Positions 6,252 through 45,668 of a stretch of DNA of 64,000 bases are shown here, piece after piece. The stretch is from a virus. The stretch lies in the IMG/VR virus record IMGVR_UViG_3300035180_001220, positions 1 through 64,000 of that record; one strand, written 5' to 3'. The first letter of the stretch is position 1. Every line of letters begins with the position of its first letter. The notes under the pieces are model-generated. The model ran no database searches. It saw only the letters and a list, made by a program, of their open reading frames with translations, and was not told the origin of the DNA. Both the position numbers and the translations under genes were made by a program.

Positions 6252-6253
6252 AT

Positions 6254-6346
6254 GCGAGTATGTAGGGAATCGGTAGACCGAGCTAGCTCAGAACTAATTG
6301 ACCCACGTAACTGTGGCTGGGAGTTCGAATCTCAATGGGAATACCA
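6254..6346 (+). tRNA. tRNA-Leu(CAG)-like, acceptor not paired
   Basis: Leu-type D-arm, loop CTCAGAA, variable arm CCAC/GTGG and encoded CCA are present, but the 5' GCGAGTA does not pair with the 3' TGGGAAT and the T-stem is weak. Probably a degenerate or chimeric gene. Confidence 0.5.
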
Positions 6347-6442
6347 TTTCAAAGAGTAATGGATAGCGATGTAGTCCGAAAGGATCAAGAGATAATTTCA
6401 AAGACTCGCTTATAAACTGTATTCCATTACTCTTTGAAATGG
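6344..6442. repeat. Inverted-repeat module 3 (19-bp perfect arms)
   Basis: Arms 6344-6362 and 6424-6442 are perfect 19-bp complements. The left arm starts with the CCA of the upstream Leu-like tRNA; the right arm ends with the first GG of the next tRNA 5' half. Confidence 0.75.
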
Positions 6443-6475
6443 GGAGGTAGCTCAGTTGGTTAGAGTGCTGGAGGA
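6441..6475 (+). pseudogene. tRNA 5' half without a 3' half
   Basis: GGGGAGG, then a textbook D-arm (GCTC-AGTTGGTTA-GAGT), but no anticodon arm or T-arm follows. It is a truncated tRNA or the 5' part of a split gene; no matching 3' half was seen in this window. Confidence 0.5.
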
Positions 6476-6532
6476 ACGAAAAGTTTGAAGATAGTGGGCC
6501 CACCTTGAATCACGGCTACGAGATTTTAAAGA

Positions 6533-6578: not shown

Positions 6579-6697
6579 GCGGGTATGGTGGAATTGGTAG
6601 ACACACCAGACTTCTACGGAACATCTGCTAACGCGGGTGTTCAAAAAAATTTGGCGGGGGCAACCCCATGCCGGTTCGATTCCGGCTACCCGCACCA
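6579..6697 (+). tRNA. tRNA-Leu(TAA) with a 32-nt anticodon-loop insertion
   Basis: GCGGGTA/TACCCGC acceptor, type II variable arm (GGGG/CCCC), T-arm GCCGG-TTCGATT-CCGGC and CCA are all intact. The anticodon stem CCAGA/TTTGG encloses 39 bases. Removing 6614-6645 leaves the normal Leu loop CTTAAAA, so the insertion lies between positions 34 and 35. It forms the hairpin GAACATCTGC-TAAC-GCGGGTGTTC and is closely related to the insertion in the tRNA at 15121. Confidence 0.85.
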
Positions 6698-8122: not shown

Positions 8123-8196
8123 AGCTCCATAGCTCAAAAGTAGAGCATACGACTGATAATCGTAAGACCTAGGGGCGGTACCTAGTGGAGCTACCA
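8123..8196 (+). tRNA. tRNA-Ile(GAT) with altered D and T loops
   Basis: AGCTCCA/TGGAGCT acceptor, anticodon stem TACGA/TCGTA, loop CTGATAA, CCA encoded. All stems pair perfectly, yet the T-loop is GGCGGTA instead of TTCRANN and the D-loop is AAAAGTA without GG. Confidence 0.85.
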
Positions 8197-11513: not shown

Positions 11514-11604
11514 GGAGTGTAGGCTGGATGGTCAGGCCCTGCAGTTTTAAACCATAGAGCCGCTAATACTGGCTCGCAGGGTTCGACTTCCCGATACTCC
11601 GCCA
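11514..11604 (+). tRNA. Type II tRNA, anticodon TTA or TAA
   Basis: GGAGTGT/ATACTCC acceptor, long variable arm GAGCC/GGCTC, T-loop TTCGACT, CCA encoded. The loop TTTTAAA would give TTA (UAA suppressor); shifting by one gives TAA (Leu). The anticodon stem has two mismatches, so identity is open. Confidence 0.6.
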
Positions 11605-15120: not shown

Positions 15121-15231
15121 GCAACGGTAGCTTAAGTGGTAAAAGCAGTGGACTCTCACGAAGCATCTGCCAACCGGCGGGTGCTTAAGATAATCCACCG
15201 ACATTGGGTTCAAGTCCCAAACGTTGCACCA
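15121..15231 (+). tRNA. tRNA-Met(CAT) with a 34-nt anticodon-loop insertion
   Basis: Acceptor GCAACGG/ACGTTGC (6 pairs), D-loop with GG, T-arm TTGGG-TTCAAGT-CCCAA and CCA are present. The anticodon stem GTGGA/TCCAC encloses 41 bases. Removing 15156-15189 restores CTCATAA (CAT). The insertion holds the hairpin AAGCATCTGCC-AACC-GGCGGGTGCTT, homologous to that at 6614. The mature RNA would be 77 nt. Elongator Met versus Ile2(CAT) cannot be separated. Confidence 0.8.
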
Positions 15232-15276
15232 TTAATCTCTGGGTTCAAGTCCTGGGTCGCATCAAATAGAAAGAAG

Positions 15277-41994: not shown

Positions 41995-42126
41995 ATGGAT
42001 TTTGCAGTAGATTTTATCAACGGAATTAGTCTTGGAGCAGAGTATGTTCCAGCTGAGAGTGATGATGAAGTTAATACTTTCATCATCGATATTGTGTTAT
42101 TAAGATTGTTGTTTCAGTGGGAGTGA
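41995..42126 (+). CDS. Conserved small phage protein, 43 aa
   Basis: TGGAG six bases upstream. MDFAVDFINGISLGAEYVPA then IIDIVLLRLLFQW matches a tiny protein found in several T4-like phages; function unknown. Confidence 0.65.
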   Translation: MDFAVDFINGISLGAEYVPAESDDEVNTFIIDIVLLRLLFQWE

Positions 42127-42164
42127 AACAGTTGTGGCAGGTAACTGAAATAGGAGAAATGAAA

Positions 42165-42734
42165 ATGGCAAAGATTCTGCAACTCGACATCAACGGTCAG
42201 CCTAACGAATGGATTTCGTGGCAAGATGCTGCTGTGTACCATGCTAAGGGACTTGTCTCTTGGTCATTGGGCGAGTATGAAACAGTAATCCGTGGTGGTA
42301 ATAACCGCATTACTGGAGAACAATCCATTATCAAGACTTCTTCCATCATTGCTGTTAAGGGTGCTATTGGTAAGAGACGTCATCGTATCCCTGCTTTGAA
42401 CAACACTGAGCTGTTCCGTAGAGACCGTTGCACGTGTGCTTACTGTGGTCAGGTGTTCTCTGAACACAAGCTTACCCGTGACCACATCATCCCACGTTAC
42501 TTGAAGGGTCAAGATGTTTGGATGAATGTTGTAACTTGCTGCTCGAAGTGTAACCAGAAGAAGGACTGCAAGACTCTTGAAGAAGCTGGCATGACGTTGC
42601 TTTACGCTCCATACGTTCCATCTAAGGCAGAACATTTGATCCTCGCAAATAGAAATGTACTAGCAGATCAAATGGAGTTCCTTATGGCATTCGTTCCTGC
42701 AAACTCAAGACTTAGAACAGAACTTATACATTAA
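42165..42734 (+). CDS. HNH endonuclease
   Basis: 189 aa from ATG 42165 (AGGAG eight bases upstream). CTCAYCGQVFSEHKLTRDHI, IPRYLKG and NVVTCCSKCNQKKD form the two-CxxC HNH fold (C...DH...N...C), like free-standing bacterial and phage HNH nucleases. Unlike the one at 38310 it is not next to a tRNA. Confidence 0.85.
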   Translation: MAKILQLDINGQPNEWISWQDAAVYHAKGLVSWSLGEYETVIRGGNNRITGEQSIIKTSSIIAVKGAIGKRRHRIPALNNTELFRRDRCTCAYCGQVFSEHKLTRDHIIPRYLKGQDVWMNVVTCCSKCNQKKDCKTLEEAGMTLLYAPYVPSKAEHLILANRNVLADQMEFLMAFVPANSRLRTELIH

Positions 42735-44054: not shown

Positions 44055-45668
44055 ATGTTTTTCTACGCAAACACGATGTCTACCACGCCAGCTAAGGTTG
44101 TTACCCCACAGACCGAGGCTATCCCTGGCCGCGAGGCCGATATGGCACAGAATAATGCTGGCGGTGTCGTCTTTAAGATGGACGAGTGGGCCTATCTTGA
44201 CCGCTTTTTAATTTTGGGAAGTGCGACTCCATCTTACTACGCTTCTGCCCAGAAGTTGACGAAGGATGCTGCAAAGAATGTATTGGCTTGCATCGCTGCA
44301 AACGGCGTACAAACAGTAGAGAAGATTGTTGAAATCTCCCAGGCTGGGCGTGCTCCAAAGAACGACCCCGCGGTGTTTGCTCTTGCACTTTGTGCAATTA
44401 GCAAGGATGCTGAAACCGTTTCTGCTGCTTATGCCGCTCTGCCAAAGGTCGCCCGTACGGGCACCCACCTTTTCCAATTCGTTGCTGCTTTGGATGAGCT
44501 TGGTAAGTGGAATGCTGCTGCAAAGCGTGGTATTGCCGCGTGGTACACTAAGCGCAACGAAGACCGTTTGGCAATGCAGTTGATGAAGTATCAGTCCCGC
44601 AATGGATGGTCTCACCGTGACGTCTTGCGTCTTGCTCACGTTAAGCCAGGAAATGAACTTCAGAGTAACATGTTCCGATATGTTGTAAAGGGTGCAGATG
44701 CAATTGAACAAGGTCAGGCAATGCCACAGACCATGATCGATTACGAAATGCTGAAGCGTAACCCAGATCAGAAGACTGCTCTGCGCATCATCGCAGACAA
44801 CAAGGACTTCACGTGGGAAATGATGCCTACTGAATTGCATAAGAACAAGGCAGTAATGTCTGCTCTTATCCCTAACATGGGTATGACCGCGCTTATTCGT
44901 AAGCTTGGTGCTTTGACTGCGGCTGGAGTTATCGCTCCTTTGTCTTCGGACTTGAAGGCTGTTGTTGCTAAGCTGAAGGATGCTGATACCATCAAGGCAG
45001 CTCGTGTACACCCAATCACGATCTTGTCTGCTCTTCGCCAGTACTCTTTGGGTCATGGTGATAAGGGTAGCTTGACTTGGACTGCTAACCAAGCTGTTGT
45101 AGATGCTTTGAACGATGCATTTTACGATGCATTCGAGTTCATCCCAACTACTGGACAGGGTTACTTGTTTGGTATGGATATTTCTGGTTCCATGTTCAGT
45201 TCTCAAGTATCTGGTACGCCGGGAATGACTGCTGCAGAAGTATCTGCTTGTATGGCACTTGCTGTCGCTAAGCGCGAAAGCAACTACGAAATGTTCGGCT
45301 TCGACACACGTCCAAAGCCATTGAAGATTTCTCCAAGCATGCGTTTGGACGGTGTTATCAAGGCTATGCGAGACCTACGCTGGTCTGGGGGCGGTACTGA
45401 TTGTTCTTTGCCAATGACCTACGCTATTGATAACAAGATTAGCGGAGTAGATAAGTTCTGCATCTACACCGACAGCGAGACCTATGCAGGTCATATGCAG
45501 CCTGTGCAAGCCTTGGCGCAGTACCGTGCTAAGTTCAGCAAGAACGCGAAGTTGATTGTTTGCGGAACCTCCGTAACCAACTTTACCATTGCTGACCCTA
45601 AGGATCCAGGAATGTTGGACGTAGTTGGATTTGATTCTTCTGTACCACAGTTGATTCAGTCCTTCTGA
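44055..45668 (+). CDS. rsr: TROVE/VWA protein (Ro60-like, Rsr)
   Basis: 537 aa, AAAGGAAA upstream. Residues ~35-350 are the helical TROVE repeat ring (FALALCAISKDAETVSAAYA, FQFVAALDELGKW, KRGIAAWY, LMKYQSRNGWSHRDVLRLAH). Residues ~365-535 are a von Willebrand A domain with the MIDAS motif DISGSM (~375) and the later TDSE. Ro60 proteins bind misfolded RNAs in the ring and Y RNAs outside, and in bacteria work with 3' exonucleases in RNA quality control. In a phage with ~50 tRNA genes this suggests RNA surveillance or tRNA maturation. Confidence 0.92.
   Translation: MFFYANTMSTTPAKVVTPQTEAIPGREADMAQNNAGGVVFKMDEWAYLDRFLILGSATPSYYASAQKLTKDAAKNVLACIAANGVQTVEKIVEISQAGRAPKNDPAVFALALCAISKDAETVSAAYAALPKVARTGTHLFQFVAALDELGKWNAAAKRGIAAWYTKRNEDRLAMQLMKYQSRNGWSHRDVLRLAHVKPGNELQSNMFRYVVKGADAIEQGQAMPQTMIDYEMLKRNPDQKTALRIIADNKDFTWEMMPTELHKNKAVMSALIPNMGMTALIRKLGALTAAGVIAPLSSDLKAVVAKLKDADTIKAARVHPITILSALRQYSLGHGDKGSLTWTANQAVVDALNDAFYDAFEFIPTTGQGYLFGMDISGSMFSSQVSGTPGMTAAEVSACMALAVAKRESNYEMFGFDTRPKPLKISPSMRLDGVIKAMRDLRWSGGGTDCSLPMTYAIDNKISGVDKFCIYTDSETYAGHMQPVQALAQYRAKFSKNAKLIVCGTSVTNFTIADPKDPGMLDVVGFDSSVPQLIQSF

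Follow-up and report, generated by a model that had tools for sequence, protein, structure and literature searches.

Short hairpin inserts between anticodon positions 34 and 35 form a rare, conserved family of putative introns in giant-phage tRNA genes

Two tRNA genes in the viral DNA studied here are interrupted within the anticodon loop, each by a short insert that splits the anticodon itself. We asked what these inserts are, whether they share an origin, and how the interrupted genes might still give rise to working tRNAs. The window, by which we mean the whole stretch of DNA analyzed, comprises bases 1 to 64,000 of a 112,303-bp IMG/VR record. Bases 50,443 to 112,303 of that record match the start of a 239-kb contig (G004) at 99.998% identity across 61,861 bp. 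Because the record and G004 overlap in this way, at least ~290 kb of this virus is represented, and the window is a piece of a giant phage.

Results

ARAGORN detected 35 tRNA genes in the window, compared to 36 for Rfam. Two of the Rfam predictions were over-long (15121 to 15228 and 6579 to 6694), an anticodon-loop insert accounting for the extra length in both cases. Elsewhere in the array, a plus-strand tRNA gene at 11514 to 11604 combines an ochre suppressor-like UUA anticodon with a long variable arm, and another at 8123 to 8193 (plus strand), whose T loop is aberrant (GGGGCGGTA), was found by Rfam but missed by ARAGORN. Gene decay within the array is suggested by three tRNA-like fragments: a Leu-like gene (6253 to 6345), a D-arm-like start (6442 to 6520), and an isolated T arm (15234 to 15262).

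The first interrupted gene lies at 15121 to 15231 on the plus strand and is supported by its sequence, Rfam, and ARAGORN. Its anticodon stem, formed by GTGGA (15148 to 15152) and TCCAC (15194 to 15198), encloses 41 nt that read CTC/TCACG-AAGCATCTGCC-AACC-GGCGGGTGCTT-AAG/ATAA, where slashes mark the ends of the insert. The insert itself is 34 nt long (15156 to 15189), sits between anticodon positions 34 and 35, and consists of TCACG, an 11-bp hairpin (15161 to 15186) with the loop AACC and the core CATCTGC/GCGGGTG, and AAG. As the preliminary description had stated, its deletion restores the seven-base loop CTCATAA with the anticodon CAU, and after joining, ARAGORN recognizes the molecule as tRNA-Met(cat). 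The gene can be called Met by its anticodon only and may instead encode Ile2 (lysidine-34). The second gene, identified by the same three lines of evidence, is a tRNA-Leu at 6579 to 6697 (plus strand), in which a 32-nt insert (6614 to 6645) lies between the same two positions. Here the loop, within an anticodon arm at 6606 to 6654, reads CTT/CTACG-GAACATCTGC-TAAC-GCGGGTGTTC-AAA/AAAA, with a 10-bp hairpin at 6619 to 6642 (loop TAAC) between CTACG and AAA. Deletion of the insert yields CTTAAAA and the anticodon UAA, which matches a leucine body with a long variable arm. Despite their inserts, both loci are recognized by the Rfam tRNA model, at 46 bits each.

When introns were allowed, ARAGORN found both genes, placed the insert near 37/38, and called them Glu(ctc) and Arg(tct). 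We discarded that register on two grounds: neither body is of the type called, and only 34/35 is consistent over all copies of the element described below.

A hairpin of at least 10 bp is by itself unremarkable, occurring in 0.7% of random 41-mers; what is remarkable is the combination of shared sequence and shared site. The inserts of the CAU and Leu genes are identical at 21 of 28 non-loop positions, a value reached by 1 of 200,000 random window pairs. We also scanned the window with R2, a covariance model whose five source copies all lie in other viruses and which includes no window sequence. R2 scored 73.2 bits at the Leu site (E = 1e-20) and 48.6 bits at the CAU site (E = 1e-12); the third-best match scored 13.7 bits, and nothing else in the window was convincing. 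These results uphold the earlier proposal that the two tRNA genes carry homologous inserts.

A search of 2.9 million viral contigs with the pattern CATCTGC(2-8)GCGGGTG.TY.AA returned 14 stretches, six of which are tRNA genes. Altogether, the element is present in six viral contigs besides the window, which represent about five more viruses and all have large tRNA arrays; two of them, G015 and G018, are near-identical over about 1 kb. The possibility that it would occur in no other tRNA, raised in the preliminary description, was thus not borne out. Including those in the window, there are eight distinct interrupted genes: five Leu(UAA) genes (window, G013, G014, G015/G018, and G017), two CAU genes (window and G016), and one divergent Tyr(GUA)-like gene. 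The last was detected in G015/G018 by another model, R1 (E = 4e-4 over 1 Mb), and reads AGGGA-CTG/ACAA-GAGTGTCTGC-TAAA-GCGGGTATTC-TAC/TAAA-TCCCT; joining at 34/35 would give CTGTAAA and the anticodon GUA. In a register scan, 34/35 alone yielded anticodons that fit all bodies (UAA in five, CAU in two, and GUA in one), which bears out the insert location first proposed. Removal of the insert, as expected of tRNA introns in general, leaves a canonical tRNA with the expected anticodon in seven of the eight genes, each called as such by ARAGORN. The exception is the Tyr-like copy, in which the loop is restored and the D arm is poor, and ARAGORN rejects the joined form.

Further scans suggest that the element is rare and patchy among phages. 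In a model scan of 52 records, nearly all from the same phage clade sharing an HNH gene, it was missing from 51, the exception being the window's own. A loose core pattern gave 120 stretches in IMG/VR, none in a tRNA and all attributable to chance; scans for altered cores and for other isotypes gave no new members; and neither plasmids nor a set of 50,697 phage records contained a credible match to the insert. Among bacterial genome contigs, a pattern limited to ACGGAG, which is too narrow, produced three matches, all by chance. Because the core served as bait for most copies, part of its invariance reflects how they were found. To counter this bias, we note that the model-found Tyr copy still has UCUGC/GCGGG and that a flank-only pattern with a free middle, which gave 38 stretches, fitted only tRNAs already known to have this core, which argues for real constraint on the core. 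All carriers are fragments from metagenomes.

Across the eight copies, 99.2% of the pair cells in the anticodon stem and hairpin are standard, and seven pairs changed on both sides. The covariation score was 0.440, compared to 0.185 for shuffled alignments (0 of 500 reached the observed value) and 0.036 to 0.107 for slid ones. On any of the measures used, between 0 and 6 of 500 shuffles reached the observed value, and slid controls were 32 to 48% paired. Four of the five anticodon-stem pairs covary, among the leucine copies too, indicating that the stem is maintained around the insert. Within the hairpin, compensatory changes occur at the basal pairs, while the five apical pairs (UCUGC/GCGGG, which includes a C-G between two U.G pairs) never vary; the ACG (5') and AAR (3') flanks are replaced by ACAA and TAC in the Tyr copy. 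In all eight genes the split anticodon fits the body in a single register, with U33 and A37-A38 kept, and the acceptor stem, T arm, and CCA are likewise preserved. Overall, we conclude from these comparisons that the element constitutes a real, rare, and conserved family, probably of tRNA introns.

The arm TCAGACTTAAAATCTGA, present in Leu(UAA) genes of related phages that have no insert, is identical to the joined arm predicted for G013 and provides an independent check on the junction. These tRNAs are ~75 to 85% identical to the interrupted ones and are not close orthologues. Neither the window's virus (the 112-kb record and the overlapping 239-kb contig G004) nor G014 yielded a second Leu(UAA) gene. 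Because intact Leu(UAA) or CAU tRNAs coexist with the interrupted copies in G016 and G017, the latter could be dispensable.

The preliminary description had supposed a shared element, mobile or inherited. Common descent of the inserts is supported; mobility is the weaker reading. Leu copies in different viruses (91 to 100% identical) are closer to each other than the window's own two copies, Leu and CAU, are (66%). Inheritance together with the tRNA would fit this pattern at least as well as mobility. Neither a target duplication nor an associated mobile gene was found at the inserts, and the HNH gene common to all carriers is frequent in related phages without the element as well. The same description had ranked a 34-nt intron with a conserved core among the smallest known. 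The conserved core stands and the size claim does not, given that archaeal tRNA introns span 11 to 129 nt with medians mostly of 12 to 25 (PMC4090602); 34 nt would be tiny only by the standards of ribozyme introns.

We searched the carriers for enzymes that might remove the insert. Rnl1 domains are present in three of them (G004, which is the window's own virus, G014, and G016), and kinase-like P-loop proteins are present in G004 and G014. We regard the link between Rnl1 and the element as circumstantial because G002 has Rnl1 without the element and because T4-type RNA ligases are common among jumbo phages (review PMC7824862). Each of the three carriers with Rnl1 has it as a split gene (G004, 70529 to 73139; G014, 148899 to 150613; and G016, in the 27.8 kb region), whereas it is intact in G002 and G007. 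An opposite-strand open reading frame separates the halves in each carrier and is homing-endonuclease-like in G004 and G014. In G004 the break falls at the active site (KRDG/C.../S) and resembles a split intein.

No tRNA_int_endo/SEN endonuclease (PF01974) was detected in nine phage records, which are fragments, with archaeal controls positive, and RtcB (PF01139) was not found in the phage records, also fragments. An HNH endonuclease-like protein in the window (42117 to 42734, plus strand) was dropped as a dedicated nuclease, being widespread in related phages without the element; at least 55 viral contigs carry it, many from giant phages and often inside the tRNA array. Screening of other proteins common to four carrier groups and not in G002 gave no plausible nuclease.

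Discussion

We think it probable, with moderate confidence, that the insert belongs to a conserved family of short introns and is removed by an endonuclease, after which the halves of the tRNA are joined by phage RNA repair enzymes. The observations behind this reading are the element and its homology, site, and pairing, the intron-less sites, and Rnl1 in three carriers; from them we infer transcription, cleavage, ligation, and the enzymes involved as follows. The insert would be transcribed within the pre-tRNA, in which the anticodon stem forms and the intron folds as its own hairpin of 10 to 11 bp with the invariant apical core UCUGC/GCGGG (U.G, C-G, and U.G consecutively). A phage or host endonuclease might then recognize the combined shape of hairpin and anticodon arm and cut after nucleotide 34 and before nucleotide 35. 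A kinase would heal the ends and a T4-type Rnl1 ligase would seal the halves, giving a normal seven-base anticodon loop. Removal dependent on proteins, namely an endonuclease and a T4-type RNA ligase, is the mode we favor on present sequence evidence.

The insert might instead remain in the RNA, whose enlarged anticodon arm would make it a decoy, a regulator, or a Y-like RNA bound by Ro60 and not an adaptor. Bacterial RNA partners of Ro60 are tRNA-like, and the window's virus encodes a Ro60/TROVE protein with a vWA domain (44055 to 45668, plus strand; Pfam TROVE and vWA_Ro60), relatives of which, 67 to 71% identical, occur in three other viral contigs. There is also a weak match between the Deinococcus Y RNA and part of the Leu locus (23.6 bits, below the cut-off of 80), which the tRNA-like portion of the locus could explain. 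A decoy, however, would not require preserved split anticodon bases, whereas all eight genes keep a fitting anticodon along with U33, A37-A38, the acceptor stem, the T arm, and CCA, and the interrupted gene is the only Leu(UAA) found in the window's record and G004 and in G014. We consider an unspliced RNA unlikely. Self-splicing or self-cleavage, in which the hairpin and the unpaired ACG and AAR flanks would be a very small ribozyme that cuts at both of its termini and may or may not need a protein ligase, would account for an apical stem and flanks conserved beyond the needs of a neutral insert. It is nevertheless improbable given the altered flanks of the Tyr copy and a length of 31 to 34 nt, far below that of any splicing ribozyme we know of. 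Rfam searches at E <= 10 returned only tRNA and sub-threshold families, with no match to ribozyme or intron families, and the element belongs to no Rfam family.

Alternatively, a palindromic DNA element could be inserting into anticodon regions, with dead and decaying tRNA genes as the result. This would suit the sporadic distribution of the insert within its clade and the second intact isoacceptor in some viruses. We find this the most doubtful of the alternatives, very improbable overall, given that covariation in the anticodon stem spans the insert, also within the set of five Leu copies, that the insert is conserved between viruses while the tRNA bodies differ, and that the site is always identical, with neither a target duplication nor a mobile gene.

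The protein-spliced intron that we prefer can be compared with several known systems. Archaeal and eukaryotic bulge-helix-bulge introns are also short, lie in the anticodon loop, and are presumably removed by proteins, but have their own site at 37/38 in place of 34/35. Their motif is a 4-bp helix with two flanking 3-nt bulges that hold the splice sites cut by the SEN endonuclease. By alignment inspection, the best register of this motif has three to four of four pairs in seven copies and about one of four in Tyr, and the inferred cuts fall inside the helix and outside the bulges; we rejected it. The group I intron of cyanobacterial and plastid tRNA-Leu(UAA) likewise interrupts the anticodon loop, and in plastids it also follows U34. 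A group I intron is a ribozyme, a few hundred nucleotides in length, with a catalytic core, whereas the phage element, at 31 to 34 nt, is too short to hold the P3-P9 core, for which Rfam gave no match at E <= 10. The 5' exon of a group I intron, moreover, should end in U paired with an intron guide G; here it ends in C34 in both CAU copies and in G34 in Tyr. According to a 2014 review, group I introns were not known from any phage tRNA gene (PMC3984707).

Repair by T4 Pnkp and Rnl1 of damage from the anticodon nucleases PrrC and RloC resembles the proposed process in that phage enzymes act on tRNA cut and rejoined in the anticodon loop near the wobble base, and Rnl1 is present in three carriers. 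It differs in restoring a nicked tRNA, whereas the phage element would require the removal of 31 to 34 genome-encoded nucleotides.

Because tRNA introns have been reported in Lak megaphages, where they were called enigmatic and are typically identical where genomes share them (Devoto et al. 2019, PMC6784885), the present element is not the first intron in phage tRNAs. Both lie in tRNA genes of giant phages; the present element differs in being one intron found in three tRNA species at a fixed site with a defined hairpin. The element model had no match in Lak-A1 and Lak-B1, and the long Lak tRNAs examined carry other, AT-rich inserts. Among the over-long tRNAs of these two genomes (L370 to L373), L371 and L373 have ACACCCAAATCCCAGGGATAAGAGAT in common at the anticodon arm.

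Other unusual tRNAs came to light in these phages. A second over-long type ('Trp', 51 to 53 extra nt; L159:5627-5750 and L228:8694-8817, minus strand) is 71% conserved between two giant phages and unrelated to the element. A tRNA-like pair, 77% identical (L232:14732-14845 and L228:10811-10925, both minus strand), has normal acceptor, D, and T arms and no clear anticodon stem, and is a candidate Y-like RNA or other tRNA mimic. Other hairpin inserts occur in L161 (G002, 149101 to 149200, 143286 to 143376, and 143552 to 143648) and L162, comprising a tRNA with the anticodon CCU and a hairpin after the anticodon and two with D-loop hairpins.

We found no description of this hairpin family in the open-licence literature searched, and on its sequence features we file the element as a well-defined new variant among phage tRNA introns. 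Since the insert must go for the tRNA to work, the family points to an undescribed kind of phage tRNA splicing. More specifically, and more tentatively, at a little under even chances, there may be an undescribed system in which a portable intron of 31 to 34 nt at 34/35 is recognized through its invariant U.G/C-G/U.G stem by a non-SEN nuclease and a phage RNA-repair ligase seals the tRNAs of several amino acids. Besides self-splicing group I introns, we know of no bacterial tRNA intron whose removal is understood. The family offers a minimal, sequence-defined substrate with a predicted junction, which makes direct testing possible. If removal by repair enzymes proves true, this would be a new splicing system, and it would link phage defense against anticodon nucleases to the origin of tRNA splicing.
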